Of a stretch of DNA of 64,000 nucleotides, positions 5,701 through 63,539 are shown piece by piece. Positions within the stretch are counted from its first letter, which is position 1; the number at the start of each line of letters is the position of its first letter. Position numbers and translations under genes: made by a program. A model generated the notes under the pieces. It was not told the origin of the DNA and made no database searches. It saw only the letters and a program-made list of their open reading frames with translations. The DNA is from Sabellastarte sp. h YS-2021. Taxonomy: Eukaryota > Annelida > Polychaeta > Sabellida > Sabellidae. Location: contig OZ024936.1 of NCBI GenBank assembly GCA_964017235.1, forward strand, positions 54,239,028 through 54,303,027. The letters are read 5' to 3'.

Positions 5701-5824
5701 TGTAATTTAAGTTGTAAGTTTTTGTAACTATGTCTCTTTTAATTGTATCCCCGACACGAAGCGGGGATACTATGGATTCATCATCGTTGTCGTCCGCGTC
5801 CACGCCCTCGTCCGCGTCCGCAGA

Positions 5825-6290: not shown

Positions 6291-6295
6291 CATTA

Positions 6296-7500: not shown

Positions 7501-7584
7501 AAGTTTGCAAGGTATATTAGAGGGTGCACCACAGTATTCTATTGGTAGGCTTTATGTCTAAATTAGGCCTGTGGCTAAATTACT

Positions 7585-8469: not shown

Positions 8470-8760
8470 CATTGATTTTACCTCACATGTTTGGTGGAGA
8501 TTTTACACTTGTCTTTTTTATTGCGTAAAATACCCTTTCCTTATCCTCACTAATGCTTACGTGTTGGCGGGAGCAAACATGGACAACCAAATGAGAATAT
8601 TTTTAAAATAAATATTCTTGTTCGTACCATTATGTACGCATGACTGCACATGCGTCTGCACCGGAAGAACCCGGTTAAGCATTGGCACATTATACATTGA
8701 TTTTACCTGACATGTGTTAACACATGTATGGTGGAGATTTTACATTTGTCTATTTCTACC
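8470..8760 (+). repeat. Local direct duplication upstream of exon 1
   Basis: ACATTGATTTTACCTSACATG...TGGTGGAGATTTTACA.TTGTCT occurs at about 8470-8515 and again at 8695-8752, where it forms the branch/pyrimidine region of the exon 1 acceptor. The first copy has no exon after it. Confidence 0.6.
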
Positions 8761-8774
8761 TGTTTATAGGACAG

Positions 8775-8900
8775 GTGAAATGTCCAGAACAAAACCTGTG
8801 CATAGAACACCTGTGGCTGTGTGATGGGGAGGCAGACTGTGATAATGGATGGGATGAAAGTCCAGAGGTGTGCAAAAACTGCTCTGCTGAACAATTTCAG
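8775..8900 (+). CDS. Exon 1 seen: LDLa-1 (C2-C6) and start of LDLa-2
   Basis: Encodes VKCPEQNLC, then CDGEADC and WDESPEVC, the second to sixth cysteines of an LDL-receptor class A module with its acidic calcium site, followed by NCSAEQFQ, the beginning of a second module. Donor is CAG|GTACTAAG. Acceptor is ACAG ending at 8774 (phase 0); TATAG ending at 8769 also gives an open frame (phase 1), so the start is uncertain by 5 bases. The first cysteine of LDLa-1 is missing, so an upstream exon must exist. Confidence 0.88.
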
Positions 8901-11900: not shown

Positions 11901-14900
11901 CCCAAAAATGGCGGCCATTTTGAATTTTGGAATTTTTGCCAAAAATAGAAAAACAGGAATTTGCTTCTATCTTTTTAACAAAAGGTTGATAGGGTGGACA
12001 TTACACATGATAATGTGTGTTCTTCTATGCTATCCTGTTTCTATTCATATGTCGCAGCTACAAGCAACAGGGCGTCCTATTTCTAGTTAATACTTGAACT
12101 GTCATTGCAACTTCCGAACTGCCCATTATATTGTATATTTCATCATGCAAAGAAGGCTATATTGAATTGTATTATCAACTGTTTACCTTATTGGAAATAA
12201 AATATGTTTAAACCAAATACAAGTGTTCTAATTACAGTGCCGAGATTATGGCTGTGTAGACAAGGCTGCAAAGTGTGATGGGATCTATGACTGTGCTGAT
12301 GGATCAGATGAACAATATTGTGGTAAGGTGAAATCTTCTTAAATTATGTAGAGTAAGAAATCTAAAATTCGCAAGAAATCTAAAATTCGCAACCTCTAAC
12401 ACCATAGTTAATTCTATTTAGAAAATCATGCTTTGTCTTAAACTTGGTATATTTCAGTTCGAAAAGTCTTGATTTACTATACATTCAACAAATCTTACCT
12501 CAATTCATTATTTTTTGTAAATATTTCAACCTGTGGAGAATTTCAGATATGTGGCAAATTTTAGATTTCTTACTCTAATACTAATAATATTGAAGAACCT
12601 CTCATGTCAGACCTTGTAATTATTAATTTTAATAATTACTCATTTCTACTCTCTCTTAAATTATATTTCCTTATTGTTTTATACTCAACTGCCTCTTATA
12701 TGTTACAACTCGTCTGTTACCCAATCTCAAATTTCCTCTCAAGACAAACAATGGAGGTTCTGCTGAACACAAACATAAAGGTTAAACAGAAATTTATAGA
12801 GTGGGAAATGTAAAATTTGCCACATATCAGAAATTCGCCACATGTGGAAATACTAATAAAATAAAATAATTGAGGTGAGATTTGTTGAATGTATAGCACA
12901 TTTAGGCTTTTTGAACTGAAAAATACCAAGTTTAAGACAAAATACCTTTTTTTCATAGAATTAAGTATTAGGTTTTTAGAGGTGGCAAAATTTAGATTTC
13001 TGGTCAATTTTAGATTTCTTACTCTATACATCTACACATCACTTGCTCACAATTTTATTCTTTTCGATTCTAGACTTTTATAGCACTTAATCTCTGGCCA
13101 AGGCAGACTTCAAGGTGCAACACCAGAAACCCATTCAAAATATTCCATAGACAAAGCCAGGTTGATACCACAAAGACATCGGGTAGTTTATAGGCTGAGG
13201 TGGGAAAACCTTTTTTAAGAGATAAGATGTTAGCCTTTTCCTGAAACAGGCAAGAGTTGGGGAAGAATGAACATCATCAGATAAATCTTTCCAAACAGTG
13301 GGAGAATCAAAGCAAAAACTGTGACAGTCACCGAAGTGTTTTTGAATTTATGGGTAGAATTGAGGAACCTCCAAGAACCTTGTATCTGATCAACTATACC
13401 TTGTGCCATATCTACCACAATAAATATGTAAAAGACAACCAGATATTAACCAAAATAGTTGGAGTGACCACTGTGGAGAAACTTGTAAACCAATAGAGTC
13501 TTTTGAGAATAGGAGATGCTAGCAATTTAAGCAATCCTAGTAAATGTATTTTGGTTACACTGGAGTGTACTAATTTAAAGGAAGGACTTTGCACTAGGTT
13601 TACACAAAGCGAGACATATCACCAGGTCCATTTGCAGTGTGATATCATAAATATTACATAGCTTCATCAAGATAAATCTTTTTGTGCAAACTACTGAGTT
13701 ATCTTTATTTATTTATTTATTTATTTGGGGTTTCTCATCACTTTCAACACTGTACCGGTCATATCACAATGGGTAGTTTTGTGAGCAGAGGAAACCAGTA
13801 CATACAGTTGGTCAAGGTTCTGTACTGTAAACTGCCGACCAGTGGTAATCAACTACCAGCTTTCCCACATGAGGTCCGGGGTTTGAACCGCTGACCTCAG
13901 AGGTGGGAGGCGAGTGTGTTACCACTGTGCCACCGTGATCCCCACTGAGTTACCAATCATCTGGACTAAGAAATGAGAAACTCACCACAGTAGGTGGAGA
14001 TCAGAGGCCTTACATAGTTCACAAAAAATTACAGATTTCTAACAAGTCAAGGAAATAGATGATCTTACTGGTGAATTTTATGTTTCCTACTCTATATATG
14101 TATTTTCTGTGGCATAATAATTTTATATTGTGCACTACATACCACAAAGATCTTGGTCCTCGTCACTGTCATTGAATAAGTTGTGTCCATCACCCTTTTC
14201 ACCATTTGTCAGAAGACATCACCCATTTTAAGGAACTTTCACTTCTAGAGACCATTTTTTTCTTTTTTTCCATTTTTTTTCTCCACAGCCTTTAAGGGCC
14301 GTATGGGTATTGTTTTCACCCATGGCATCCGGATGGGTGGGCGGATGGGTTGTGATTAAAAAGCTTGTCCAGGCTGGATTTCAAAAACAGTGAGGTATAG
14401 GGTGTTGATACTTGGTAGGGACATTGGTTTATGGGTGTAGGTGTGCAACATCATGGTGTACCCTTGTTTTGAAATTTTACCTTGCCACAGTGACCTTGAG
14501 TTTGAAAATCAAGTCGGGCCTATATCTCAGAAATCGTAAGGTGTAGGACATTGATACATGGTAGGGACATTGGTAAGGGGTTGTTAGCGTGCAATGTCAA
14601 GGTATGATTTGATTATACCTTTGACCTTGCTGTAGTGACCTTGTCATTTAAATCTTCTCTTTGCTATATCTTGGAAACCGTAAGGTTTGAAGGTTGAAAC
14701 TTGGTAGGGACACTGGTTAGGGGTGTAGAAATGCTATATCATTCTGTGACCTTGATCTGACCTTTGACCTTACTGTAGTGACCTTGATCTTTAAAATTTT
14801 GTCCAGGCTATAACTTGGAAACCAAACTGAGTGGACATTTGATACTTGGTAGGAACTTTAGTTAGGGAGTGTAGGTGTGCAACATCATGTGACACTGTTT

Positions 14901-17900
14901 GCTCTGAAGGTATCTTAATCTTTATGCTGTGTACCTTCTATATCTCATGGTGTTGAAAACTATTTCCCCGGGCTCTGGTGAATGGGCACCTCTGATGCTA
15001 TTTTTATATATATTTTTGGTCACAGGACTTTCATCACTTGTAGCTTAGCATGATGAGTATCCTTTCATCACTGAAATTAAGCAACAATGGGCTATGTTAG
15101 TACTTGAAAGGGTGACTGTTTGAGTTCCTAAGGCCAGGGATGTATCTGACTCAGAATTTGTTTTTGTCGCCACACTTTCATAAATTCTAGTGCACTAGTC
15201 GTGTCTCTCATAGTTTTACAGCTTGCGCATGTAGACCGAAACACTTCCAGCCTTGTTTAGTATCATGGTAGTATAATATTTATCTCTACTTATTCAAAGC
15301 AAAATTTACTTATGGGAATTTTTCTGAGACATGGTTTGTACTGTGATATATTGGTACATACTATTTTTTCAGTGAGAGTTCGGGAAGAGGATAGTGTTCT
15401 GGAAATATACAGGGATGACACCTTCATTCCTCTGTGTGCTGAGGATTTCCCAGGAACAAGACTGGATGAAATCTGCGCCAGCCTGGGCAAAGGAATTGTC
15501 GATAGAAGGTGAGAGTCATTAAAATTGTAATACTGAATATACTGTATGGAGGTATGTCATAGTCATAAATAATGTGCAACTAGTGTTGAAGATGGTAAAC
15601 CAGAAACCTATTTGCCGACCGAAAGCCACTGATCTGGTTACGTTTCATTTTCTTGTAACCAAAACCAGTTTTGCCACAGTCATTATTTTAACTTAAGTTT
15701 ACTAAAATATTCAACTACAACAAATATTTCGCAGTATTTTATAATATTCCATCAATACATCATCCATGTTGTCCTCGCAAGTCTTCAGAAAGGTCCATCG
15801 TTGTTCTTACTTATATGCGAGTTATGGCTCATGTACACATTTGAAAACTTATTTCTTTGCCTTTAATAAATCAAACCTACCCAGTTTTTCGCCGAATTTC
15901 TGGTTTCAGAAACCGGTTCTAAAATTCACATTGAACCACAACACTATGTATAACTAATTGTAATACAAGCCAAAGAAGATAGTAAAAGCCTCATTTAAAT
16001 CTCTTAACATAATTGCTTTGTATCTCTTTAGTGTACCTGAACCTGTGTCCAGCCGGTACTACCTCCATTGGAGCCCTGCCTCCTCATCCCAAAGCTCTGC
16101 CTCCAACTTCCTGCAGCACCTGTCAATCTCTGGCAGTTGCTATGACAACCAGGTAATAGCCATCTCCTGTATGGAGTTGAAGTGTGGCCTTCCCACTACC
16201 TTGCCCAGCCCATTCATAGTGAGTGGAGAAGATGCAACATTAGGGGAGTGGCCTTGGCAGGCGGTGCTGGTGTATAAAGGCAGGAGGGTGTGTGGAGGTA
16301 GTTTGATAGATGAGGACCATATCCTTACTGCAGCTCATTGTGTACAGTAAGTGTACTATAGTTATCATCATAGTCATGTATCTGTCTGCTTCACTATTAC
16401 AGGTAGTTGTCTTTATTCCAACTGAACACATCGGTGGCAACCTTTCCCCATGGACTTTTGTGTTATGTGAAATCTTTCAATTTATAATAAATGCTTGTAG
16501 TGCCAAGATGTATCTTGCTGTCTGTTCCTAAATGAACATTAACTTTAATTAAATTCCCAAAAAAAGCCACCAAATAACATATAATCATATATAAACTCTA
16601 TTTTTTTTATTTTGGGTTTTTATTTTGACGTATGTTATACTTATGATATAAATTTTCACAAAAGATCAACAATAACAAAACAAAAAGCCAGCCTGTAAGA
16701 CACATAGAGTAAGAAATCTAAAATTCGCCATGAATCTAAAATTCGCCACCTCTAAAACCTTAGTTAATTTTATGAAGAAAATGATGTTTTTTGTCTAAAA
16801 ATTGGTATTTTTCAGTTCAAAAAGCCTTAATTAAGCGTCCCTTGAAAATGGGACGCTTATTGGTTTCACCCCCGGTTTTCAGTCAGCCGCCGCCGCCGCC
16901 GCCGCATTATCGTCTCCCTTGAATATCTCCCTTGTTATTAGGCCTATCCAAATGATATGTGGCAGTGTTCTTCTATAGGCGTGGGGAAATTTTTTGACAG
17001 GCATAAATTTGACCTTTGACCTTTATCAAGGTCACATTATCAAAAATTCAAAAAAAAATTTACTTCCTTTTCACTAGATTTCCTCAGAAAGTACTGGGTG
17101 TGGGTCAACCAAATTTGGTATGCACATTCCTGGGGGAAGAATCTAGGCGCCAGTCGATATTGGGATCAGTCGGGCCATAATTGACCGATTGACGGGCGAT
17201 TGATTATAAGTTCATAAAAATTTTGCTAAGATTAAGCCTTGAACTCGCTTATTATTGGTCGTAGAGGTTTGGGATGGTATACCAACATATAGGAAATCAT
17301 GTGCTGGGAATCTTCTGGTGTGGTCAGATTTGACCTTGGGCCCCTCCTTCAAGGTCAAGCGAGGATAGGCAAAGTTTAAAGTGCTTCTAACTCGCTTATT
17401 ATTGGTCCTAGAGGTTTGGGATGGTATACCACCATATAGGAAACCATGGGCTGGGAATCTTTTGGTGTGGTCAGATTTGACCTTGGACGTCTCCTTCAAG
17501 GTCAAACGAGGATAGGCAAACTGAAAAGTGCTTATAACTCGCTTGTTATTAGTCCTAGAGGTTTGGGATGGTATACCAACATATAGGAAATCATGTGCTG
17601 GGAATCTTCTGGTGTGGTCGCATTTGACCTTGGGCCCCCCCTTCAAGGTCAAACGAGCATAGCCAAACTTAAAAGTGCATATAAGTCGCTTATTATTGGT
17701 CCTAGAGCTTTGGGATGGTATACCAACATGTAGGAAATCATGGGCTGGGAATCTTCTGGTGTGGTCGGATTTGACCTTGGGCCTCTCGTTCAAGGTCAAA
17801 CGAGGATAGCCAGACATAAAAATGCTTATAACTCGCTTATTATTGGTCCTAGAGCTTTGGGATGGTATACCAACATATAGGAAATCATGGGCTGGGAATC

Positions 17901-56900: not shown

Positions 56901-59900
56901 CGGTCAGGATTTCGGCGTTTTCTTGGAATAACTTATTCAGCTACTTTTTGATAATATTTCACATGCCAAAGTTTTAGCCCTGTATCTACAATCTTAAGGT
57001 CACTTTAATGTCAAAAAGGGGGGTTTTAGCCCTCCAGTTCACTTAGTTTTTTACTTTTTTCAACCAAACTAGGCATATATATTAAGATTTACCTAAAGAA
57101 TATCCTGACTTTATGGTGATCTTAAACTGTTAATATAATTGGAACTATGCCCCCCCTAAAGTCATAAAATTGGAATAAAGCCGTCTGGCCCCTTGCTTTT
57201 TCCATATCTAACATATATTGATATTGGAGTAGATCAAAAGAAGATTGTTACTACCTTATGATTTAAATATTAATGATGTTATGGCCATCTTAAACTTAAA
57301 ATGTAGGGTTTTTCAGCCCTTAGCTCAGTTAATGTTAAAATTTTTAAAATAAAACTTGGCACATTTATAAAGGTTAGCAGAAGGGACATTAATTTTATGG
57401 TCACCGTAAAGTCATAATATGCATGAAGTTATGGTCGCCTTACAGTTAAAAAAGGAAGTTTTCAGCCTCCAGCTATCTTATTGTTCAACTGACCTCAGCT
57501 AAAAATTGATCCACTTATAAAGGATGACAAAAGGGACATTCTTATTTTAAGGTCACCTTAAAGTCCCAATATGAATGAAGTTATGGCCACCTTGCAGTGA
57601 AATTATGGAGTTTTTAATCTCCAGCTATCATATTGTTTAGCTGACCTCAGATAAATTTTTCACACTTATAAAAGATGACTATAGGGACATTCTTAATTTC
57701 TTTAATTTTCATTATTAATATATTGCAGCTGATCAGTGTTCATATAATATAAATTCCCAATTTTAGGCTCATTAAAAAAATCCCACATTCTTCTGATGTT
57801 AAAAGGATGATAAGGGATATCAAGATGTATTCATTTCTTTTCATCAACGGATATGCTTACAGTAAATCTTTTTGGGGGTAAACAATTCAAACAAGGACAT
57901 TTATCTTTAGGTTCATGGAAGTAGAGCCTTGTGGAAAGAATGCCTTGTCTGTTTTGAGAGAATGGAAAAAAGCCTTAATAATATGTAAAAACCTTGGGCT
58001 TTCATGATATTCAGATATAGAGTCATGTGTGAACTAAAAATGTTAACAATAACATCTGACAACATGACTGTTAATTTTTTTTTACAATGGAACAATAATG
58101 GATTTCACAGATATGATTATCTTAATATATAAATATTATGCATATTCATCTGATAAAAATATTAAACAGCAATGAATTTTCAGAGGCATAAAATGCCTCA
58201 AAGATATATAACATATGAATGTCCCTATCTATAGCCAATTATAGTTTACTACAGTGTATCTTTATCATTATAAATCTGGGATTAAATATCTCCTGGAAAA
58301 AATTTACGATCCCAAATTTACAGCAAAAATGATATATTCTTTTCATAAAATATACCACTCGAAGAAATACAATAAAGCTCACATTCTGCTTACAGTTTAA
58401 TACTGCAACGGATAGAGTTTTTAGATAATCCACTTTTCCATCATATAAAACAGATGAAATCAGATACAAAACACATTTAAGCTTACCTTCTCCTTACAGT
58501 CTCATACTACAACTACTACAGCTTTATTAACTCAAGTCTCCATCCGGGCCATTTGTTTTTGCTAGCAAAAACCTTTTTCTAGTTTGTTTACCCTTTTTAC
58601 AAAATGTATACATAACTCTTTGGGAGGAGGGGGTAGCCATCCATCCATCAGGGGCTCACAAAAATTCATAAAAAATATGATGTAAATATTGTAATGACAA
58701 TTACGCACAATTAAAATCCATTTTTTAGCTCCTAATGGAATTTCAAAAGTTTCTTATACCGCTTCATCAAATAAAAAGATATTGTGCCTTCAATAGTGTG
58801 CAGTAGATTAGATTACATAACCCTTCTACTTTAGGGTTTAAGTATATTTTATTTCCAATTAGACAGTCTCTGTATATCTTTTAGCAAGCTGCAAGTTTGG
58901 TGAAATGATGTGTGGAGATGGTCGCTGTTACCAAACTGAGTGGCACTGTGATGGTTTTGCCGACTGCACAGACTCATCAGATGAAGAGGATTGTGGGACA
59001 TGTCCAGAGGGACAGTACCAATGTGCTAGTTACGAGTGTCTTGACAATTCCAAACGTTGTGATGGCACCATAGACTGTAAGAGTGGTAGCGATGAACTAG
59101 GCTGTGGTAAGTGAATTGAAAGATGAAGTACCATGATATTTTTTCAAAATATGGCCCGGACGTTAATTTTTTTCAAATGGCATCAGGCCAGGTGTTAAAT
59201 TGAACCAGGCGTTCTTTTGAAATACAAAAAACAGTGTTATAAATTGTAAACGTTGTGCTTGGTACCAGGCGTTTATTTGAACCTGGGCGTTATTTTGGAA
59301 ATTTACGGTAGTTGTTTTTAATTTAAAGTTTAGTTATTTTTTAGTTTCTGTCATTTAGATGTAAACTGTTGTGAATTTATTGCTTAAAGTGAATTTATTG
59401 CTTAAAGTTAATTGAAATGGCCAAAACAATTGTAAACCAGCACCACTCATGGAAGATAAAAAGATGAAAATATTTCAAGTTCATTCTCTGGGCTTTTCAA
59501 TTGAACAGATGCCACTCTTTAAACAGGGAAGAATTTAAATGTTATTAGTCCTGTAATTGTAGGATTGTCTTTTTAACCTTAATGATTTTTCATTGTTTAG
59601 TTTTTTCACAGATATTTGGTTAAACATAAATAAATTACATGTGAAATTAAACATTATTATAATTGCTTTTTGAGACTTAAAGATATTGTCATATTTATCT
59701 AAATTAGAAGAAAAACTATAAAAAATATTTAAGGATGAATTTTTAGAAATATGAACCTTAATGTGCTTTTATTCAGTGGACATCCACACTCGGTATTTTT
59801 TCAGTGACATTCCACTGTCTCTCTGTCTTAACTTTCACATCATATTATTTTTCAGTTGGCTTCCACACATCAGGCAGTGTAGTAAATATACTCCATGCTC

Positions 59901-62900
59901 TTTACAACGGTGCCTGGCTCCCAGTATGCAGCGATGTATGGCAGGATTCTTGGAGTGATGACATCTGCAAATCCATGGGACATGGCCCTGCCATAGCAAC
60001 CACAACAGTTACCGTAGAATCACCACAATATGTCAAAGCATCCAACACCAGTGTCAAATTCCATAGTGGCTTGTTGCAAGTGGCCAGCTCCTGTGTTGAA
60101 AATACTGTTGTCAAGGTCACTTGCGAAGAACGGACTTGTGGCATGAGAGAATTCGACTCAAAGCCAACTGGCTTTATTATAGGTGGTGATCTCGCACCAG
60201 AAGGTGCCTGGCCATGGATGGGCGGGTTATATTACAGAGGGGCTTTTGTATGTGGAGTAGTTTTAATAGATGAATACGTTGCCATTTCAGCAGTCCATTG
60301 TTTCTTTGATTATGACAGCAAATTATCAACTGCCAATTTACCTAATTACCACACGATTCAGTTTGGATCCAATCAGATATATGACAGTTCTGCACAGACA
60401 AAAGCAGTGAACAAGATTGTAGTACACCCCAATTATACTACACTAGCCAATGGCTTCAGATATGATGACATTGCAGTAATTCAGCTGAAGACACCGGTGA
60501 CTTTGAATGATAAAGTGAATCCCATGTGTCTGCCAGATGGATCAGATGCAGATGTACATGTGAATGATATATGCTATCACTCAGGATGGGGATACTCCAA
60601 TGTGGACAAGTGTAAGTGTATTAGAGTAAAAATCTAAAATTCGCCAGGAATCTAAAATTCGCCACCTCTAAAACCTTAGTTAATTTTATAAAGAAAATGA
60701 TGTTTTTGTCCAAAAATTGGTATTTTTCAGTTCAAAAAGCCTTAATTTACTATACAGTCAACAAATCTCACCACAATTCATTTATTTTATTAGTATTTTC
60801 ACATGTGGCGAATTTCAGATATGTGGCGAATTTTAGATTTCTTACTCTATTTATTTAATTGTGAGCATGGCATATATGATTTCACTTACGCCTTTAATGA
60901 TAACTGGAAAAATGCTGCTCAAGCTACTTAACTCTTTTCCATTATTTATTCTGACATGGTCTCTTTAGTATTTTTAGTGTAAAAATATGAAATATGCCAC
61001 TGTGACAACATATGAAATTTGCCACCCAGGGTTACCCTTTTAAAACAGAAAATAATCAGCCTTTGTGCCAATTTGCATTAGGGGAGATCAGAGGCTCACA
61101 CCCAAATCACAATAGAGATGGTAGTATGAGTTGGTCAATACGCCCCTGTCCTTGAATACTGTCTGACATCCGTGTGACCTTATGACACCGTTGCAAAACA
61201 TCAGATTCCTTACGTGTGCTACGGAAGTTTTAAAAATGTTTAAATTTCTGCCTTTGACCACCTCCCCATAACCATGCCCAGATGATTTTTTGGTATCATG
61301 GTAACTGGGAAGTATAGTCCACAGTGTATATAAGATTGTGACTCGGTCATGCCTCGGTGTAACATGGCGACATAAGGTTAGTGGAGGAATTGGACGTTCA
61401 CCACAGTGTGTCACAAGCTTCCATACACACCTCAGATGGTAGTTGAAGGTCTGGGGCATTTTGACCAGTGCATACTACTGCGGGACATACCACTTGTAAT
61501 GTAAATGGATACACTAAATCTCGGAAGATGTGTAGCGTCTTCGGAGGTGGTATCGCCACCGAGTAAAACCTTTAACTGCAGGACATACAAACTGTAATGT
61601 CATTGGGGTATTAATGTAGTCGTAAAAAATACAACAAATGTGTAAAGATCATCCCATAAACCAAGGAAATAGATGAGGGGTGTTTTCTCATTCACTCTCA
61701 TGAATTTTTGCACAAAGTGGCAAATTTCAAATTTCTTGCTCAAGCTTATTGAATGATAGAGTAAAAAGTAGGCGTCAGACCACTTCTGAAAATCCAGTAC
61801 GGTATCCAGGGCTTTAAACATGAGCCATAATTTAACACAAGAATTGTCTTTGCGAAAAATTATGAAGTTGATGAAGTTTGAACTTCATTTACAATGAGTG
61901 TAAAGTTAAAATGTGAGATATTTCCTTATATTTTTATGTTTTTTATTGTCTTGACAAAGTATTAACCAGTAGAAAGCCTAAAAAAATGACCTTTTGAATA
62001 GCTGGTACTTAAGAATTCTTTGCGGATTTCATCATTTTTAACCTCAACAAATGAAATGCAGTATACCGGTTTACAATTCACACCACTAGCAAAAGTGGAG
62101 AACTCTCTTGAGGTAAATTGTGTTTAAAGTAGAGATTAAACTGTTATGTAATAATAATAGTTAACCTTACAGAGGTTTCAGTAAAAACACAAGAGTCTAA
62201 TCTGTTGGTGTCATGCAATTTATGTATTTTTATATACTATGTGCATTTATACATAAGAATAACATTCATTGGGCTTTAATTGTAAAGACTCTACTTTATT
62301 AGCTCGAAGTCATTCAAAATATTTTATGTATAACTTGAACAAGTAAATTAGACTTAAGCTAGCTTATACAGAGTTTAATCTATTAGCTTGATGTAATTTA
62401 ATGTATTTTATGTATAACTTGTACCTGTAATTTACACTGGTTTTATTATTTTATTGATGACTATAGATGAAGCAGTGCAAGACTTAAGAGAGGCCAGACA
62501 TCTTGTGTGGAGTGCAACAGAGTGTAACAAAGAAGAAAACTGGGATAATTATATGAAGCCAGAGACTCAGCTTTGTGCTGGATATAGTAGTGGAAATATT
62601 GCCTCCTGTTATGTGAGTATAGAAAATAGTGTTAAAATTTTGTCTATTTTATGAGAAACAACTGATCAACTGATTAACGCTTATTTTGTTTTGTGCCCAG
62701 TGAACCGATTGAAAGACCTTTTAATTAAACAATTGCTTTATCAATTCATCATAAGTTGTGGTTTCAATGTCCTGGGTGATTGGATGTAGGAAATCAGTGC
62801 TTACTGATTAGTCAAGATTCTGGTAATTTTTATAACTTTGTGCTTTATCTTTTTTCCTGTAGAAACCCAGCCTGGTTCAGATAAAACAACATTACCCCAT

Positions 62901-63539
62901 TACCAGATATAAAGGGGATAATTTTTGTAAATGTAATACAAATCCTTTCATATACCATTTGTTGAATATTTAAAGGTGTTACCAACCTGAATAAACAAAG
63001 CCAACTGGCTGCTAAGGTATTGGATATCATTTGGTAAACATGAAAATCCTCTATAAGTCCTTGTGTTATCCACAACAGTCTTACAGTTTTGATATTTGTA
63101 TTGTTTATGTGACACTTGCCGTGTATATTTTATTTATTATTTGAAGCTCAAGTTTTCCCGTGACAGGAGTGGTTTTGAATGTTCTTTGACCACTCGACTC
63201 TGGCCTTTAAGTTAGTTAGGATAAAAGAACTGTTCATCAAATCCACACCCAAAGTAAATTGAAAATAATGTTGCTTTCAATAATTTTAAATTTTTTTCTC
63301 AAATAAATATAGAACTATTTTCATAACTGATAAAATCATGTATATTGTAGGGTGATAGCGGCTCACCGCTGATGTGCAGAGATGGAGTTGGGGGTTGGAA
63401 ACTAGCTGGCATTCTGACCTTGGGAGCAAATGATTGTGGTCAGCACAGAAACCCTCCAGTGGAACCAAGTGTGTTTACAAAAGCTGCAAGTTATGTGCCC
63501 TGGATAAAAGACACCATTGAAACATTCAAAAAAAGATAA
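8775..63539 (+). CDS. Mosaic double serine protease gene, 5'-partial, 25 exons
   Basis: Span of one spliced gene. Joining the 25 exons listed separately gives 4428 coding bases (1475 residues plus stop) with no phase conflict at any of 24 introns. Domains by approximate residue: LDLa 1-32 and 36-70, SRCR 71-165, protease 1 174-407, LDLa 410-445, MAM 450-620, LDLa 622-660, MAM 665-812, eight LDLa 815-1112, SRCR 1113-1210, protease 2 1226-1470. Both protease units keep the cysteine that ties the propeptide (KCGL, TCGM) to the catalytic chain (KPVCLP, NPMCLP), so activated forms should stay disulfide-linked. Expected to be extracellular, since LDLa, SRCR and MAM are secreted or ectodomain modules. 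Signal peptide or membrane anchor would lie upstream of the window. Not recognised as a named gene. Enteropeptidase-like or Nudel-like proteins are the closest family comparisons. Confidence 0.9.
8901..9290 (+). other. Intron 1, unremarkable start
   Basis: AT-rich intron sequence between the exon 1 donor and the next transposable element. I see no repeat or coding signal. Confidence 0.4.
9290..10690 (+). mobile_element. Helitron-like element, ATCTCCCGC family
   Basis: The 5' palindromic segment ATTATCTCCCGCCC...GGAGATTATAAT matches an inverted subterminal GCGGGAGATACACACC near 10658, then the small hairpin CCAC-GGCA-GTGG and TCTTG. The same right-hand block is present inside the larger elements near 90, 3400 and 47815. 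The core is a 151-bp array. Confidence 0.6.
9840..10640 (+). repeat. 151-bp tandem array, about 5 units
   Basis: AAGAGATAGAGCGATTT recurs at 10033, 10184 and 10335 (spacing 151), each followed by GACCCACAGGGTAGTAC and CCACTTTTGGCGGCCATCTTGG in truncated or full form. Earlier and later copies are more diverged. Confidence 0.85.
10742..10804 (+). repeat. Short GC-rich tandem repeat
   Basis: Alternating GTCCGATGTCCGGCG-type words repeated about seven times just inside the 5' hairpin of the element. Open in several frames by chance; not coding. Confidence 0.85.
11130..11975 (+). repeat. 170-bp tandem array, about 5 units
   Basis: Units carry ATCTCCTTAACCGTGCGAGA, GATAGAGCGATTTCGTCGAA, CAAAAATGGCGGCCATTTTG and TTCGAATTTTTGCC. 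Spacing of TCTCCTTAAC is 170 (11471, 11641). Clearly related to the 170-bp units at 43740-44680. Confidence 0.85.
12238..12322 (+). CDS. Exon 2: LDLa-2
   Basis: Acceptor ATTACAG, donor GTAAGG, phase 0 in and phase 1 out. Encodes [17 protein letters not shown] and ADGSDEQYC, completing the LDLa module begun in exon 1. The DxSDE calcium-binding cluster is canonical. Confidence 0.93.
12349..12577. mobile_element. TA-flanked palindromic MITE, copy 1
   Basis: Ends are TAGAGTAAGAAATCTAAAAT and its inverse ATTTTAGATTTCTTACTCTA, with a second inverted AAATTCGC block inside. About 229 bp, no ORF. TA at both edges suggests a TA target site as in mariner/Tc-type elements (inference). It starts 27 bases after the exon 2 donor. 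Confidence 0.85.
12797..13026. mobile_element. TA-flanked MITE, copy 2 (diverged)
   Basis: Same element in opposite orientation to copy 1, with left end TAGAGTGGGAAATG mutated and right end GATTTCTTACTCTA intact. Confidence 0.8.
13077..13500 (-). mobile_element. LINE 3' fragment, minus strand
   Basis: The minus-strand translation [20 protein letters not shown] matches the + strand copy at 32640-33060 ([20 protein letters not shown]). It ends with the shared tail CAGAGATTAAGTGCTATAAA. The frame is broken. It looks like the C-terminal end of a non-LTR retrotransposon polyprotein. Confidence 0.7.
13702..13943 (-). mobile_element. tRNA-derived SINE, family 1
   Basis: Read on the minus strand it begins GGGGATCACGGTGGCACAGT, with an A-box-like GGTGGCACAGTGGTAAC and B-box-like CGGTTCAAACCCC, and ends in AAATAAATAAATAAA. 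Flanked by ACTGAGTTA at 13693-13701 and 13944-13952 (target duplication). Confidence 0.85.
14285..15000 (+). mobile_element. Repeat element of the 146-bp family
   Basis: Begins with imperfect palindrome ACAGCCTTTAAGGGCCGT and TATTGTTTTCACCCATGG, followed by diverged units with GATACTTGGTAGGGACATTG, GTGTGCAACATCATGG and TTTGACCTTGC. It ends with ATCTCATGGTGTTGAAAAC...CTGATGCTATTTTTAT, a tail shared with 26740-26820 and, weakly, 55175-55500. Confidence 0.7.
15018..15270 (+). mobile_element. 5S-rRNA-derived SINE, copy 1
   Basis: AATTAAGCAACAATGGGC and GTTAGTACTTGAAAGGGTGA correspond to the internal-control-region part of 5S rRNA (GTTAGTACTTGGATGGGTGAC). The following 120 bases (ACTTTCATAAATTCTAGTGC) are shared with copy 2 at 49605-49870. 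Degenerate; it lies about 100 bases before exon 3. Confidence 0.7.
15373..15508 (+). CDS. Exon 3: first half of SRCR-1
   Basis: Acceptor TTTTTTCAG, donor GTGAGA, phase 1 to 2. Encodes [13 protein letters not shown], then [11 protein letters not shown] and LDEICASLG. This matches the opening of the scavenger-receptor cysteine-rich module that precedes the catalytic domain in mosaic proteases such as enteropeptidase. The two cysteines (PLC, EIC) are the usual early pair. Confidence 0.88.
16032..16346 (+). CDS. Exon 4: end of SRCR-1, activation site, His57 of protease 1
   Basis: Acceptor CTCTTTAG, donor GTAAGT, phase 2 to 2. The SRCR ends with SGSCYDN and [10 protein letters not shown] short linker then leads to [10 protein letters not shown], the expected zymogen cleavage point, followed by WPWQ, CGGSLID and LTAAHC with the catalytic His. 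P1 is Phe rather than Arg or Lys, which is unusual for this family (see findings). Confidence 0.93.
16705..16830. mobile_element. TA-flanked MITE, copy 3, left half
   Basis: TAGAGTAAGAAATCTAAAAT to AAAAAGCCTTAA. The other half resumes at 23360. Together the halves equal the intact copy at 60622-60849. Confidence 0.9.
16884..16906 (+). repeat. CCG trinucleotide run
   Basis: About seven GCC/CCG triplets in the GC-rich segment just inside the 5' hairpin of the Helitron-like element. Confidence 0.85.
17212..19877 (-). repeat. 147-bp satellite, about 18 units, open frame on minus strand
   Basis: The unit has CTTATAACTCGCTTATTATT, GGTCCTAGAGGTTTGGGATG, GTGTGGTCGGATTTGACCTT and CAAGGTCAAACGAGGATAGC. 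Because 147 is 3 x 49, one minus-strand frame stays open for 893 codons (19893-17212), with a 49-residue repeat containing [16 protein letters not shown] and SRTNNKRV. Its ATG lies in the inserted transposon. There is no sign that it is a real gene, and long frames are also open on the + strand. Confidence 0.9.
19878..21649. mobile_element. TTAA-target DNA transposon, non-autonomous
   Basis: Flanked by TTAA at 19874-19877 and 21650-21653. Terminal inverted repeats are AGGTCATAGGAAACATTTTT and, inverted, AGGTCATAGGAAGTATTTTC. Removing it rebuilds an intact satellite unit (CCAAACTTAAAAGTGCTT). A second inverted pair, GACGTCACAGGTTCAT / ATGAACCTGTGACGTC, lies inside (about 20278 and 21440). TTAA targets are typical of piggyBac and Kolobok elements; no transposase is present, so the superfamily is open. 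Confidence 0.88.
20034..20224 (-). mobile_element. tRNA-derived SINE, family 1, truncated, inside the TTAA transposon
   Basis: The minus-strand SINE has B-box GGTTCGAATCTCG and tail AACAAATAAATAAA. Target duplication CGAACRTGGAGTAAA at 20019-20033 and 20225-20239 with one mismatch. This is the innermost layer of the nest. Confidence 0.8.
21654..23135 (-). repeat. 147-bp satellite, continuation, about 10 units
   Basis: The same unit continues after the TTAA transposon. Minus-strand frames are broken by frameshifts here, unlike in the left part, which argues against protein-level selection. Confidence 0.9.
23360..23463. mobile_element. TA-flanked MITE, copy 3, right half
   Basis: TTTACTATACC to GATTTCTTACTCTA, continuing from 16830. 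Confidence 0.9.
23464..24513 (+). other. Intron 4, 3' part
   Basis: Non-repetitive AT-rich intron, with a run of T at about 23650-23674. No other structure recognised. Confidence 0.4.
24514..24785 (+). CDS. Exon 5: protease 1 middle, Asp102
   Basis: Acceptor TCTACACAG, donor GTAAGT, phase 2 to 1. Encodes [30 protein letters not shown] with the catalytic Asp, YIKPVCLP (the cysteine that pairs with the propeptide) and [12 protein letters not shown] is a possible N-glycosylation site. It follows an 8.2-kb intron packed with nested transposons. Confidence 0.93.
25125..26270 (+). repeat. 146-bp tandem satellite, about 8 units
   Basis: GGTGTAGGAAGTTGATACTT recurs at 25149, 25295 and 25441, with GTGTAGGTGTGCAACGTCAT and TGACCTTGATTTGACCTTTG in each unit. 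Confidence 0.9.
26393..26690 (+). other. Intron 5 segment
   Basis: No clear repeat. Contains ACAG|ATGGTATTACATCAG|GTGAGC, a 15-nt microexon-like string at 26444-26458 that would keep the reading frame between exons 5 and 6. I do not accept it as an exon because the direct exon 5-6 join has normal length for the fold. Confidence 0.3.
27826..29310 (+). repeat. 155-bp satellite array, about 9 units
   Basis: Same unit as 6296-7500 (GTCAGCTATAACATAGTRAA at 28071 and 28226, spacing 155). Both copies end with GTAAATCATTGTATCCACTG and a nearly identical flank. Confidence 0.88.
29435..30015 (+). repeat. 147-bp satellite, about 4 diverged units
   Basis: Units with CTCGCTTATTATTGGTCC, GGAAATCATGGGCTG and TCCTTCAAGGTCAAA, with small deletions, matching the unit at 17212-19877. 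Confidence 0.85.
30560..31035 (+). other. Intron 5 segment, no features
   Basis: AT-rich sequence with no recognisable repeat or coding signal. Confidence 0.4.
31035..31350 (-). repeat. Two degraded SINE family 1 fragments
   Basis: GTTCTGCACTGTAAACTGC with CAACTACCACATTTCCCAC, and TATCACAACGGGCAGTGG with CAACTACCAACTATTCCAC, both match internal parts of the SINE at 13702-13943. Confidence 0.55.
31358..31685 (-). mobile_element. tRNA-derived SINE, family 2
   Basis: The minus strand reads GCCACTGTGGCCTAGCGGGT with B-box GGGTTCAAACCCA, then a unique body (ATGGCAGTCCTCTGTCATTG) and tail ending GCGCTTTGAGTCTGTAATAT...AGTATAAATACA. A second copy without the tRNA head is at 41385-41640. Confidence 0.8.
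31690..32226 (+). other. Intron 5, 3' end
   Basis: Nothing recognised apart from the exon 6 acceptor. AT-rich. Confidence 0.4.
32227..32332 (+). CDS. Exon 6: protease 1, C168-C182 region
   Basis: Acceptor ACATATAG, donor GTATGT, phase 1 to 2. Encodes [15 protein letters not shown], then DKKCAQTY and NEMQCAG, the region between the GFG segment and the Ser loop, with the two cysteines that normally pair. It joins exon 5 directly to give [17 protein letters not shown], a normal spacing for a trypsin fold. Confidence 0.9.
32640..33060 (+). mobile_element. LINE 3' fragment
   Basis: Encodes [20 protein letters not shown] and [15 protein letters not shown] then stop, the pattern (F...A..LWN.L....F...LK.YLF) found at the C-terminus of many non-LTR retrotransposon reverse transcriptase proteins. 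A 3' tail ending CAGAGATTAAGCACTATAAA follows. 5'-truncated. Confidence 0.8.
33240..33360 (+). repeat. Second LINE tail fragment
   Basis: GTTGTAACTTAGTGTCTG...CAAGATTAAGCTCTGAAAA resembles the tail of the adjacent LINE fragment. Weak. Confidence 0.35.
33408..33595 (+). CDS. Exon 7: protease 1 end, Ser195
   Basis: Acceptor TTCCCCAG, donor GTGAGA, phase 2 to 1. Encodes [20 protein letters not shown] with the catalytic Ser, then [12 protein letters not shown] and PPVFTKI plus the C-terminal helix. By alignment to trypsin numbering, residue 189 is Ala, 215 Tyr, 216 Phe and 226 Pro, so this is not a trypsin-type S1 pocket. Confidence 0.93.
33933..34741 (+). mobile_element. Helitron-like element, short copy without satellite
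   Basis: Starts TTAAGCATCCCCCAAGGGACGCTTG and ends TTTGTTTTGCAACCCATCCTCTAG. It keeps the conserved leader (AACTCTGTGACCGT, CAATCAGAGAGGTCACATGA) and three 170-bp units but has no 133-bp satellite. A target for comparison with the 4.9-kb copy at 43342. Confidence 0.8.
35157..35264 (+). CDS. Exon 8: LDLa-3
   Basis: Acceptor TTTGCAG, donor GTATGT, phase 1 to 1, so a self-contained module exon. Encodes [20 protein letters not shown] and [10 protein letters not shown], a complete six-cysteine LDLa. It links protease 1 to the first MAM domain. Confidence 0.93.
35635..35810. mobile_element. Foldback (inverted-repeat) element
   Basis: The arms GGAAATAACCGATTCCGATC / ATCATCGGTTACTTCTAT and CTATAAGAGATTTTACAA / TTGTAAAATCTCTTATA form a hairpin of about 150 bases with imperfect arms. 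Confidence 0.6.
36058..36440. repeat. Unclassified interspersed repeat, copy 1
   Basis: GGTCAGACCAGTTCTGAAAA, GAATTGTCTTTGC, GTGAGATATTTCCT, AGAAAGCCTAAAATAATGACC and TATACCAGTTTACCATTCACA follow in the same order as in copy 2 at 61764-62095. No ORF. Confidence 0.7.
36668..36835 (+). CDS. Exon 9: MAM-1, first part
   Basis: Acceptor ATTTCAG, donor GTGAGT, phase 1 to 1. Encodes [14 protein letters not shown], the diagnostic MAM start, then GPVDVDSN and [10 protein letters not shown], matching the GP..DHT...G.Y signature. The usual Trp after CG is replaced by Tyr. Confidence 0.9.
37050..37820 (+). other. Intron 9, no features
   Basis: AT-rich intron sequence without recognised repeats apart from the MITE that follows. 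Confidence 0.4.
37821..38049. mobile_element. TA-flanked MITE, copy 4
   Basis: Complete: TAGAGTAAGAAATCTAAAAT ... ATTTTAGATTTCTTACTCTA. It ends about 130 bases before exon 10. Confidence 0.92.
38182..38303 (+). CDS. Exon 10: MAM-1, middle
   Basis: Acceptor CTTTTCAG, donor GTATGG, phase 1 to 0. Encodes [18 protein letters not shown], then [14 protein letters not shown]. This matches the MAM SP......CL.F.YHM.G core with its third cysteine. NIS is a possible glycosylation site. Confidence 0.92.
38656..38896 (+). CDS. Exon 11: MAM-1, C-terminal part
   Basis: Acceptor TGTTACAG, donor GTGAGC, phase 0 to 1. Encodes [31 protein letters not shown] and [12 protein letters not shown], the F.FEA....IDDI...C end of a MAM domain. 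Confidence 0.92.
38897..39836 (+). other. Intron 11
   Basis: No firm feature. 39330-39480 (GTTTATTTAAATTCTGGTAG, ATGTTCCATAAAGTAGG) may be an old retroposon fragment, but I cannot align it to anything else in the window. Confidence 0.35.
39837..40061 (+). CDS. Exon 12: LDLa-4 and start of MAM-2
   Basis: Acceptor CATTTCAG, donor GTAATA, phase 1 to 1. LDLa-4 is [33 protein letters not shown], all six cysteines present. It runs into [11 protein letters not shown] and [11 protein letters not shown], the start of a second MAM domain with the Trp residues that MAM-1 lacks. The two modules share one exon, unlike LDLa-3 and MAM-1. Confidence 0.93.
40062..41384 (+). other. Intron 12, 5' part
   Basis: No coding signal or repeat recognised. 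Confidence 0.4.
41385..41640 (-). mobile_element. SINE family 2, headless copy
   Basis: Shares TATTTATACTCAGCACAA, GATGACCATTTATCAA, CTGCCACTGGGGATAGA and GACAGAGGACTGCCATTTTA with 31358-31685, but the tRNA-like head is missing or unrecognisable. Confidence 0.75.
41684..41836. mobile_element. Near-perfect foldback hairpin element
   Basis: The arms AGGAATAACCCC...ACCACGGTATACGTAGAATTTTACCATGGTTTGAGG pair with CCTCAAACCATGGTAAAATTC..CGTATACTGTGGTTT...GGGGTTATTCCT across a short loop. Arms are about 70 bases with few mismatches. Confidence 0.85.
42187..42320 (+). CDS. Exon 13: MAM-2, middle
   Basis: Acceptor TATTTCAG, donor GTAAAT, phase 1 to 0. Encodes [14 protein letters not shown], then [20 protein letters not shown]. 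It is equivalent to exon 10 of MAM-1 and has the same end phase. Confidence 0.9.
42321..42867 (+). other. Intron 13, no features
   Basis: Plain AT-rich intron. Confidence 0.4.
42868..43000 (+). CDS. Exon 14: MAM-2, beta-strand region
   Basis: Acceptor ATCTTCAG, donor GTAGAC, phase 0 to 1. Encodes [30 protein letters not shown] and VIVFSAVSG, equivalent to the first half of exon 11. MAM-2 carries an extra intron here compared with MAM-1. Confidence 0.88.
43740..44680 (+). repeat. 170-bp tandem array, about 6 units
   Basis: Units carry AATGCTTATATCTCGAAAAC, GATAGAGCGATTTCGACGAA, GGGTATCTCTGCAGAGTAGC and AAAAATGGCGGCCATTTTGA. Long frames occur by chance on both strands. Confidence 0.9.
44685..47735 (+). 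repeat. 133-bp satellite, about 23 units
   Basis: Highly homogeneous: GAATTATCTCTAAAAGTATT, GCAGATAGCCAATTTTTCTC, TCATTCACCTACTTTTGGGA and GGTGAAGTTTCAGACCCATA repeat every 133 bases. Variants such as AATTAATCATTC and CTTGATGAAG recur at multiples of 133, pointing to multi-unit duplication. Confidence 0.93.
48293..48379 (+). CDS. Exon 15: MAM-2, end
   Basis: Acceptor ATATTTAAG, donor GTTGGT, phase 1 to 1. Encodes [24 protein letters not shown], the C-terminal LDD(L/I)....C strand of MAM-2. A 4.9-kb Helitron-like element ends only 36 bases upstream of this exon. The short remaining acceptor sequence still has an adequate T-rich tract. Confidence 0.85.
48450..48678. mobile_element. TA-flanked MITE, copy 5
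   Basis: TAGAGTAAGAAATCTAAAAT to GATTTCTTACTCTA. It starts 71 bases after the exon 15 donor. Confidence 0.9.
48680..49560 (+). other. Intron 15, middle
   Basis: AT-rich, no recognised feature. Confidence 0.4.
49564..49598 (+). other. Minimal hairpin plus CTAG, possible Helitron-end remnant
   Basis: TTAAGCGTGAGC, a short loop, then GCTCGCGCTT and CTAG. It resembles the 5' TTAAGCG hairpin and the CTAG 3' end of the large elements collapsed into 35 bases. Speculative. Confidence 0.3.
49605..49870 (+). mobile_element. 5S-rRNA-derived SINE, copy 2
   Basis: GTTAGTACTTGGATGGGTGA and TGAAGTTAAGTGGCAATGGG match the 3' half of 5S rRNA, including its internal promoter region, and the upstream GTCTCCGGACTTTCAT recalls the 5' half. 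The body after 49725 is shared with 15018-15270. It ends about 33 bases before exon 16. Confidence 0.78.
49904..50027 (+). CDS. Exon 16: LDLa-5 and start of LDLa-6
   Basis: Acceptor CTTTATCAG, donor GTATCA, phase 1 to 2. Encodes [23 protein letters not shown] and DNSDEKAGC, then TCDDR that opens LDLa-6. This is the first of eight consecutive LDLa modules. Confidence 0.93.
50028..51103 (+). other. Intron 16
   Basis: Mostly plain. At 50540-50552 the string CTGTGATGACAGGTAAGT echoes the end of exon 16 (CTGTGATGATAGGTATC). It may be a remnant of a duplicated exon end, but there is too little to be sure. Confidence 0.35.
51104..51204 (+). CDS. Exon 17: LDLa-6
   Basis: Acceptor ACTACTAG, donor GTAAGT, phase 2 to 1. 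Encodes [32 protein letters not shown]. With CDDR of exon 16 it forms a full LDLa module. Confidence 0.93.
51632..51751 (+). CDS. Exon 18: LDLa-7 and start of LDLa-8
   Basis: Acceptor TCTATTTAG, donor GTAAGA, phase 1 to 1. Encodes [31 protein letters not shown], then SCTQ as the start of the next module. A TA-flanked MITE begins about 46 bases after the donor. Confidence 0.93.
51797..52030. mobile_element. TA-flanked MITE, copy 6
   Basis: TAGAGTTAGAAATCTAAAAT to ATTTTAGATTTCGTACTCTA, both ends with single changes. It starts 46 bases after the exon 18 donor. Confidence 0.9.
52605..52646 (+). pseudogene. Broken half-copy of an LDLa exon
   Basis: After an AG acceptor (TTTATCAG), ATGACTTTTGAATGTACATC.. 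parallels the start of exon 19 (ATGACTTTGAGTGTACTATG). In its own frame it reads [12 protein letters not shown], but one extra T puts it out of phase with exon 18, giving TGA. No donor follows. Likely a duplicated exon start that has decayed. Confidence 0.6.
52669..52767 (+). CDS. Exon 19: LDLa-8
   Basis: Acceptor TTTTGCAG, donor GTAAGG, phase 1 to 1. Encodes [31 protein letters not shown] damaged copy of its first part lies just upstream at 52605-52646. Confidence 0.93.
52940..53280 (-). mobile_element. LINE 3' fragment, minus strand
   Basis: The minus strand encodes [18 protein letters not shown], the F.A..LW..L pattern of the other LINE fragments, and ends with CAGAGATTCAGCACTATAAA. 5'-truncated and diverged. 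Confidence 0.65.
53285..54100 (+). other. Intron 19, middle
   Basis: No recognised feature. A weak MITE-like half (GTGGCAAATTTT, ATGTCTTACTGTAA) lies at about 54105-54155. Confidence 0.35.
54197..54321 (+). CDS. Exon 20: LDLa-9 and start of LDLa-10
   Basis: Acceptor TTTTTTCAG, donor GTGTGA (weak), phase 1 to 0. Encodes [34 protein letters not shown], then SCE. Canonical six-cysteine module. Confidence 0.9.
54440..55500 (+). repeat. Diverged 146-bp-family repeats
   Basis: GTAAGGTATAGGAAGTTGAT, GACCTTGATTTGACCTTTGA and the tail CTATATCTCACGGTATCTAA identify two to three decayed units plus the 3' tail of the family, split by a SINE. Confidence 0.65.
55208..55444 (+). mobile_element. tRNA-derived SINE, family 1, + strand
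   Basis: Begins GGGGGCCATGGTGGCAGAGT, B-box-like TAGTTCGAATCCC, body AAAGCTGGTAGTTGCTTGC, tail CCAAATAAACAAACAA. The left flank AACATTTCA and right flank AATATTTCACAAAGG share ATTTCA, consistent with a target duplication. Confidence 0.85.
55725..55880 (+). mobile_element. Short SINE with perfect target duplication
   Basis: 156 bp flanked by ATTGCCAGTCTGTA at 55711-55724 and 55881-55894. It begins AGAGGTCCTCCTTGGCCTAG, with A-box-like TGGCCTAGAGGTTAGC and B-box-like GGGTTCAACTTCC, and ends GTTGAGCAGGAAGTAAAACC. Different from families 1 and 2. Confidence 0.85.
55999..56098 (+). CDS. Exon 21: LDLa-10
   Basis: Acceptor CTTTATAG, donor GTAAGT, phase 0 to 1. Encodes [33 protein letters not shown]. 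With SCE from exon 20 it completes the module. Confidence 0.93.
56500..58582 (+). mobile_element. Helitron-like element, diverged core
   Basis: Starts TTAAGCGGCCC-GTCA-GGGGCGCTTA and ends GTTTTTGC-TA-GCAAAAAC, CTTTTTCTAG. The core has loose repeats (AATATGAATGAAGTTATGGCC, CTTATAAAGGATGAC, AGGGACATTCTTA) of roughly 170-190 bases. It fills most of intron 21. Confidence 0.8.
58885..59106 (+). CDS. Exon 22: LDLa-11 and LDLa-12 in one exon
   Basis: Acceptor ATCTTTTAG, donor GTAAGT, phase 1 to 1. LDLa-11 is [30 protein letters not shown]. LDLa-12 is [30 protein letters not shown]. This is the same two-module cassette as exons 16+17, 18+19 and 20+21, but without the internal intron. Confidence 0.93.
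59130..59310 (+). repeat. Degraded GGCGTT repeat
   Basis: CCAGGCGTTCTTTTGAA, CCAGGCGTTTATTTGAAC and TGGGCGTTATTTTGGAAATT repeat three times with a terminal TTTACGGTA. Possibly the end of a MITE. Confidence 0.45.
59311..59855 (+). other. Intron 22, 3' part
   Basis: AT-rich, no features other than the exon 23 acceptor. Confidence 0.4.
59856..60611 (+). CDS. Exon 23: SRCR-2, activation site, His57 and Asp102 of protease 2
   Basis: Acceptor TTTTTCAG, donor GTAAGT, phase 1 to 1; at 756 bases it is the largest exon. SRCR-2: [41 protein letters not shown]. Then [33 protein letters not shown] (His), YDDIAVIQL (Asp), NPMCLPDG and CYHSGWGY. P1 of the cleavage site is Phe, as in protease 1. This single exon equals exons 3+4+5 of the first unit. 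NTS and NYT are possible glycosylation sites. Confidence 0.95.
60622..60849. mobile_element. TA-flanked MITE, copy 7 (intact reference copy)
   Basis: TTAGAGTAAAAATCTAAAAT to GATTTCTTACTCTA, containing the uninterrupted AGCCTTAATTTACTATACAG that is the empty site for the insertion at 16831. It starts 11 bases after the exon 23 donor. Confidence 0.93.
60850..61763 (+). other. Intron 23, middle
   Basis: Contains a 123-codon minus-strand open frame (61459-61088) with no recognisable domain. Treated as non-coding. Otherwise nothing identified. Confidence 0.35.
61764..62095. repeat. Unclassified interspersed repeat, copy 2
   Basis: Second copy of the repeat at 36058-36440, about 50 bases shorter: TCAGACCACTTCTGAAAATC, TGAGCCATAATTTAACAC, AGTATACCGGTTTACAATTC. 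Confidence 0.7.
62467..62612 (+). CDS. Exon 24: protease 2, C168-C182 region to C191
   Basis: Acceptor TGACTATAG, donor GTGAGT, phase 1 to 0. Encodes [36 protein letters not shown] and NIASCY. Residue 189 by alignment is Ala and 190 Ser. The exon ends directly before GDSG, whereas in protease 1 the intron lies about 12 residues earlier. Confidence 0.92.
62613..63350 (+). other. Intron 24, no features
   Basis: Plain AT-rich intron. Confidence 0.4.
63351..63539 (+). CDS. Exon 25 (last): protease 2, Ser195 to stop
   Basis: Acceptor ATATTGTAG, phase 0. Encodes [15 protein letters not shown] with the catalytic Ser, [33 protein letters not shown] and stop TAA at 63537. The residue after GDSG is Ser instead of Gly. 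Residue 214 is Thr, 216 Gly and 226 Ser by alignment. The protein ends in a lysine-rich tail (FKKR). Confidence 0.94.
   Translation, partial: GDSGSPLMCRDGVGGWKLAGILTLGANDCGQHRNPPVEPSVFTKAASYVPWIKDTIETFKKR

Follow-up and report, generated by a model that had tools for sequence, protein, structure and literature searches.

The window, by which we mean the whole 64 kb of DNA that was analysed (no N, 36 % GC), carries on its plus strand a single gene for a mosaic protease, and this gene is most likely a member of a conserved lophotrochozoan family. We consider it very probable from the sequence that a single gene carries two enzymes. The most informative finding, and one that is new here, is that the two protease units have Phe activation sites together with S1 pockets that are not of the trypsin type. 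Our proposal, to which we give a probability of about one half, is that this lophotrochozoan gene would produce a large extracellular polyprotease with two different S1A zymogens on a Cys-rich LDLa/MAM/SRCR chain, both of them activated by unit 2 or by a chymotrypsin-like enzyme.

Exons were recovered by scanning for splice sites and codons and applying dynamic programming to the result, and the final set of 25 was fixed by hand (Table 1). They span 8770-63539 on the plus strand and give, when joined, 4431 coding bases with no stop and no frameshift; the 1476 codons are closed by the TAA at 63537-63539. All 24 introns (352-8167 bases) are GT..AG and the exon phases agree throughout, bearing out the original prediction of a phase-clean join of at least 1475 residues. 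By our own matrices the acceptors of exons 2, 10 and 12 (2.3-2.6) and the donor of exon 16 (2.7) are weak. The exon 12 donor is ambiguous, the later of its two positions adding 26 aa with the phase unchanged, and the MAM model does not separate them (54.5 versus 55.2 bits). Only part of the first module, LDLa 1, is present in the chain, its first Cys being absent, and therefore the 5' end of the gene is missing and at least one exon upstream of 8770 must exist. A tblastn search of 1-8769 for N-terminal exons with six relatives gave one match, E 3.1, in repeat DNA, and no internal exon in this region passed the filter. Two ATG-hydrophobic first-exon candidates sharing a donor (8063-8153 and 8105-8153) were not accepted as N-terminal exons. 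Within the window, no AATAAA or ATTAAA follows the final stop.

Table 1. Exons, predicted sites and repeat arrays, in positions of the window.
Feature	Position	Strand	Content
Exon 1	8770..8900	+	LDLa 1 and start of LDLa 2; aa 1-43; tblastn to Lingula 2e-7
Exon 2	12238..12322	+	Remainder of LDLa 2; aa 44-72
Exon 3	15373..15508	+	SRCR 1, first half (SRCR_2 27.6 bits for exons 3-4)
Exon 4	16032..16346	+	Second half of SRCR 1; propeptide Cys; activation site; start of protease 1
Exon 4 sites	codons about 16213/16216; 16336-16338	+	Phe178/Ile179 cut; catalytic His
Exon 5	24514..24785	+	Protease 1; catalytic Asp 24647-24649; Cys122
Exon 6	32227..32332	+	Protease 1, to residue about 184
Exon 7	33408..33595	+	Protease 1; Ala189, GDSGGP with Ser 33445-33447, Phe216, Pro226
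Exon 8	35157..35264	+	LDLa 3, directly after protease 1
Exons 9-11	36668-36835, 38182-38303, 38656-38896	+	MAM 1 (Pfam 2.4e-14)
Exons 12-15	39837-40061 or -40139, 42187-42320, 42868-43000, 48293-48379	+	LDLa 4 and MAM 2
Exons 16-19	49904-50027, 51104-51204, 51632-51751, 52669-52767	+	Part of tandem LDLa 5-12
Exons 20-22	54197-54321, 55999-56098, 58885-59106	+	Part of tandem LDLa 5-12
Exons 16-22	49904..59106	+	LDLa 5-12 in tandem (Pfam: 8 stretches, 2.4e-69)
Exon 23	59856..60611	+	SRCR 2; propeptide Cys; activation site; start of protease 2; Cys122
Exon 23 sites	codons about 60173/60176; 60296-60298; 60467-60469	+	Phe1220/Ile1221 cut; His; Asp
Exon 24	62467..62612	+	Protease 2, to residue 192; Ala189
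Exon 25	63351..63539	+	Protease 2; GDSGSP with Ser 63357-63359, Gly216, Ser226, stop TAA
143-147-base tandem repeat	17242-19878, 21650-23131, 29448-30017		Introns 4 and 5; 17.9, 10.1 and 3.9 copies
133-base repeat family	1313-3337, 7578-8059, 44682-47751		Three places; 23 copies, 95 % match, in intron 14
150-169-base repeat family	916-1308, 9866-11979, 34315-34690, 43748-44681		Several introns and upstream; words GATAGAGCGATTTCGAC and GACCCACAGGGTA
146-base and 155-base units	25120-26255; 6475-7421 and 27994-29257		Further arrays

The remainder of the window is marked by the repeat arrays listed in the table. An 894-codon frame on the minus strand (17215-19896) was rejected as a gene, being the 147-base tandem repeat itself with Pfam/NCBIfam matches that include no single passing stretch. 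Searches of the window for tRNAs and for Rfam families at the gathering threshold gave no match.

The order of domains in the joined protein is LDLa2-SRCR-protease-LDLa-MAM-LDLa-MAM-LDLa8-SRCR-protease, both in Pfam and in our own profile scan. This is the order that had been read from the letters alone, and Pfam finds on the join the same 12 LDLa (E 1e-87), two SRCR_2 (3.8e-17), two trypsin (2e-101) and two MAM domains, the last with E-values of 2.4e-14 and 1.6e-14 when the two regions were scanned separately. Such E-values exclude chance as the source of the matches. Each trypsin domain covers model positions 1-220 of 220 and the joined MAM domains cover 1-157 of 158, while the LDLa of exon 8 falls below the Pfam cutoff when scanned with its MAM (19.7 versus 24.1 bits). 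With this full profile and the H57-D102-S195 triad, both protease units belong to peptidase family S1A (chymotrypsin fold). The join, the Pfam matches and the triads thus agree with the initial claim of two intact SRCR-protease units in one chain, one of them internal.

Relatives were collected in three protein searches, which listed the best 120 of 210 matches, all 26, and the best 120 of 1450 in a profile search. Closest among the matches listed were the predicted proteins P0001 of the nemertean Tubulanus (LOC141910238, 1071 bits) and, from the brachiopod Lingula, P0002 (773 bits), and the profile search, within its best 120 of 1450, added P0146 of the nemertean Lineus (LOC135503121) and P0150 of the bryozoan Watersipora. 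All four are uncharacterised, although the databases name the Lingula protein LRP2 and the Watersipora protein MALRD1-like. With L for LDLa, S for SRCR, P for protease and M for MAM, the window reads LLSP-LM-LM-L8-SP, Tubulanus LLSP-LM-LM-LM-L4-SP-L7-SP and Lineus LLLSP-LM-LM-LM-L4-SP-L7-SP (three proteases each), Watersipora M-L-M-LL-SP-LM-LM-LM-LM-L9-SP and Lingula LLL-SP-L14-SP (two proteases each). The nemerteans differ from the window by a third protease, Watersipora by additional N-terminal MAM modules, and Lingula by having no MAM in our own scan. A search of lophotrochozoan proteomes had been suggested as a check on the domain order, and the order does recur in predicted proteins of three other phyla. 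Identity to the window over aligned residues is 40 % for Lineus, 39 % for Lingula, 38 % for Tubulanus, 36 % for Watersipora and 34 % for the molluscs Dreissena and Mizuhopecten, values that do not support a molluscan origin of the window.

In several proteins of bivalves and gastropods there is a single, internal protease, in the order L4-SP-LM-LM-LLM(-L). Dreissena P0004, Mizuhopecten P0012 and Lymnaea P0009 begin LDLa4-SRCR-protease-LDLa-MAM-LDLa-MAM, with a protease that groups with unit 1 of the window, but they differ from it in ending in a MAM/LDLa tail, the unit 2 type being found on another protein (Lymnaea P0018). P0009 and P0018 lie on different contigs, of unequal length, therefore they are probably different genes. 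It had also been supposed that mosaic proteases usually carry one C-terminal catalytic domain. This was not borne out among the matches listed, many of which have several (TMPRSS9 type; Branchiostoma P0124, P0148 and P0155; tardigrade P0152; hemichordate P0220; fishes), and therefore several proteases per mosaic chain are not in themselves rare. The tardigrade protein (Hypsibius, 3264 aa) has four units of LDLa array, SRCR and protease in one predicted chain, the first with an intact triad, the second with HDA, and the third and fourth with no readable triad.

Trees were made of 38, 62 and 59 protease domains. The set of 62 was drawn from the window plus 44 proteins out of 254 that the searches gave, leaves out long TMPRSS9-type arrays lacking LDLa, and drops P0081, P0137, P0138 and P0145 of the 38-domain set; the set of 59 is the same minus three long branches. 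The label ParnNudel for P0113 was assigned by us from its architecture. In these trees the first protease of the window falls in a unit 1 clade with Tubulanus 1 and 2, Lineus 1 and 2, Lingula 1, Watersipora 1 and the molluscan internal proteases (support 99/95, 99/89 and 93/94 with 38, 62 and 59 domains). The second falls in a unit 2 clade with Tubulanus 3, Lineus 3, Lingula 2, Watersipora 2, Lymnaea P0018, cuttlefish P0253 and P0127 (91/89 with five rows, 96/75 and 93/81 with eight). Support for the two clades together is only 86/82 and 71/79. The window thus has one unit of each clade in one chain, as do Tubulanus, Lineus, Watersipora and Lingula, all with LDLa arrays before each SRCR-protease and with intact triads. 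Because the trees separate the two clades across phyla, the window units are not a recent duplication and diverged before these phyla did.

Two adjacent genes read as one, the first ending after exon 7 and the second starting between exons 8 and 23, would agree with the presence of the two units on separate proteins in molluscs. An in-frame stop at 33622, 9 codons beyond the exon 7 donor, is also in favour of this arrangement; it is read only if the donor is unused, and with the three polyadenylation-like hexamers that follow it in intron 7 it would allow a short product. However, the exon 7 donor (10.7) and the exon 8 acceptor (13.3) are strong, and the single-protease chains of Dreissena and Mizuhopecten continue from protease to LDLa-MAM across this same junction. 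Junction 7/8 aligns with 6-9 identities in 20 and 0-1 gap columns in predicted proteins of Tubulanus, Lineus, Watersipora, Dreissena and Mizuhopecten, and with 9 identities and 37 gap columns in Lingula. Junction 22/23 has 5-10 identities in 20 in the four relatives with a second unit (Tubulanus, Lineus, Watersipora, Lingula), and the junctions within MAM domains align poorly. The models of these four also join both units, although as predicted proteins they could share a fusion error. For a first exon with a hydrophobic start, introns 7-22 offered one candidate, versus two in the reverse-strand control, and none above that control. Taken with this evidence, the two-gene arrangement is improbable. 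A pseudogene or a misassembly would be less probable still: several introns contain long arrays that could cause errors in assembly, but the coding sequence stays open over its whole length, the domains are complete and their order is that of the relatives.

For a single gene with two enzymes, the question is then what these enzymes might cut and what might cut them. P1 of the activation site is Phe in both units (SPF/IVSG in unit 1 and TGF/IIGG in unit 2, with the cleaved bond at the slash). Residues 189, 216 and 226 are Ala, Phe and Pro in unit 1 and Ala, Gly and Ser in unit 2, counting 216 as the second residue after 214, so that neither has the Asp189/Gly216/Gly226 combination of trypsin-like specificity. 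Over 31 domains of the family, P1 is Tyr or Phe in 24, Ser in 2, and Thr, Asp, Met, Lys or Arg in 1 each; 30 of them have a residue other than Asp at 189, 29 have one other than Gly at 226, and the triad is H-D-S in 30. The remaining triad row is Batillaria p1, where the Ser region is misaligned with a gap at Ser, and its 189 entry (Y) is unreliable; inspected by eye, the row has Ala there rather than Asp. The two units differ at residue 216, which is bulky in 21 of the 22 unit 1 domains (Val, Phe, Met or Ile) and Gly in all nine of unit 2, HaliotisB included; residue 189 is not Asp in 8/9 of the latter. In the five chains with both units, 11 of 12 domains have an aromatic P1 (the other has Met; for the four chains outside the window Tyr or Phe stands in 9/10) and all 12 triads are intact. 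The Haliotis asinina protein P0073 is an exception within the family, with a Tyr activation site and a trypsin-like Asp189/Gly216/Gly226 pocket.

Among 31 other domains chosen for comparison, P1 was non-basic in 8 and residue 189 was not Asp in 11, five of the 11 belonging to a further molluscan group with Pro189. This separate MAM/LDLa-rich group (P0221, P0236, P0237, P0245 and P0176, molluscan or unnamed) has mostly non-basic activation sites. Over all 62 rows a non-basic P1 goes with a residue other than Asp at 189 (36:1 versus 5:20), and likewise over the 55 rows with intact triads (32:1 versus 3:19). On the tree, P1 changes about 4 times and residue 189 about 3 times, and an independent-pairs test cannot reach significance with so few changes. 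Repeated co-evolution of the two positions was rejected for this reason, and the state is therefore read as old and retained. It favours self-activation or a chymotrypsin-like activator, though with few evolutionary changes behind it, and it is quite probable that the activation of both units is non-tryptic. At least in unit 1, the pocket may be too small for Phe or Tyr, given the bulky residue 216 and the non-Gly226.

In the broad sense the predicted protein is a polyserase, having two or more serine protease domains per chain in the predicted join. Polyserases (TMPRSS9/polyserase-1, -2 and -3) carry several S1A domains per chain, polyserase-1 being described in PMC1435904 as membrane-bound with an LDLa. 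Unlike the window, they have no SRCR or MAM, and the bird TMPRSS9 that we scanned has Arg or Lys at all three sites and Asp at 189. The original prediction compared the gene with Nudel, which starts the dorsal-ventral cascade with a chain of the LDLa-protease-LDLa-protease type (passages of PMC11172050 and PMC10036332). Tenebrio Nudel, as given in passages of PMC11172050, has LDLa, a protease and a pseudo-protease, with an R/VVGG site and Asp189. That parallel proved loose: Nudel is without SRCR and MAM, and the window has neither the Arg-type site and trypsin-like first unit nor the degenerate second unit, its second triad being intact. By site, pocket and second unit the window is not a Nudel, and polyserase and ModSP are the closer parallels. 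ModSP is a self-activating, LDLa-bearing, chymoelastase-like initiator that prefers Leu at P1 (PMC10732536, in part), and the passages of PMC11172050 give an L/I activation site for the Tenebrio HP14 orthologue and Tenebrio polypeptidases with L/I sites. The window shares with this type the non-basic activation site and the non-tryptic pocket, but ModSP/HP14 has one protease, with sushi/CCP modules and no SRCR or MAM.

The best PDB matches were enteropeptidase for unit 1 (1ekb, 6.7e-46) and TMPRSS13 for unit 2 (6kd5). Enteropeptidase has LDLa, MAM, SRCR and protease modules as in the window, with the difference of one C-terminal protease, a Lys site and Asp189; TMPRSS13 has the same SRCR-protease unit, but Asp at the 189 place in the PDB alignment. 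Factor C of horseshoe crabs may be activated at a Phe-Ile bond. The literature passages seen on Factor C give LPS-driven autocatalysis only and do not confirm this bond, and the parallel was not used as evidence.

Perhaps the chain works in the manner of the self-starting ModSP/HP14-type initiators, with two enzymes per chain. The LDLa/MAM/SRCR part would bind a putative ligand or partner and cluster the chains, and this clustering could start unit 2. Each unit would be a zymogen cut after its aromatic residue; unit 2, with its more open pocket of chymotrypsin type, or some other enzyme of that type would cut these sites and activate both units, unit 2 with its Gly216 being the likelier cutter. 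Each activation site is preceded by a Cys at a distance of at most 22 residues, and Cys122 is present in both units. We infer that these form the usual disulfide, and therefore the cut chain would be a bonded complex of three chains, which makes the separable pieces suggested earlier unlikely. Held in this way, the pieces could act as an initiator complex with two non-tryptic specificities. The chain would probably be tethered to the membrane through the missing 5' exons, in the way that type II transmembrane serine proteases have an N-terminal signal anchor: of 14 sequences checked, 9 have a hydrophobic 21-mer (mean hydropathy at least 2.76) before their first domain, and the other five, which include the incomplete window chain, have no N-terminal membrane helix.

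By analogy with the known initiators, self-activation is a possibility, at well under even odds. The gene and enzymes could also be as proposed, with the activator a different protease of the gut or haemolymph that is chymotrypsin- or elastase-like. By a rule quoted in the passages of PMC10036332, an aromatic P1 marks a site of the chymotrypsin type, and the elastase-like look of the unit 1 pocket makes it unlikely to cut Phe, but the Gly216 and the general lack of Asp189 in unit 2 are compatible with cutting aromatic sites, and the LDLa-bearing initiators described in PMC10732536 (in part) self-activate. We regard such an outside activator as somewhat unlikely. Retention of the triad and of the aromatic P1 over several phyla implies selection for catalysis, which argues against units that have been retired as enzymes to serve as binding modules, with S1 blocked (Phe216/Pro226 in unit 1) and activation sites lost. 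Such retirement would be in line with the pocket residues of unit 1, with Lys at 193 in Lingula unit 1 and with the pseudo-protease units that are common in polypeptidases (passages of PMC11172050) and occur also in the tardigrade chain; we consider it doubtful.

Our literature search, made over listings and passages with subscription journals mostly outside its scope, found no paper describing the two-unit family. Lingula, a phoronid and a nemertean are among the animals in a survey of SRCR genes from invertebrates, whose passages name no such protein (PMC10855680). The fullest form of our proposal would be a self-starting initiator of two specificities in one disulfide-bonded chain, where unit 2 cuts both sites and two activities, elastase-like from unit 1 and chymotrypsin-like from unit 2, arise at one place, the units with their different pockets having been joined since before the split of brachiopods, bryozoans and nemerteans and parted into separate genes in molluscs. 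We put this forward as tentative, and on balance unlikely to hold in full. Since the molluscan units appear on separate proteins, having both in one chain is not needed everywhere. To our knowledge, the extracellular protease cascades of lophotrochozoans in immunity, clotting and development are poorly known compared with those of insects, and a conserved chain bearing a pair of non-tryptic zymogens would be an obvious one to consider as the starter of such a cascade.
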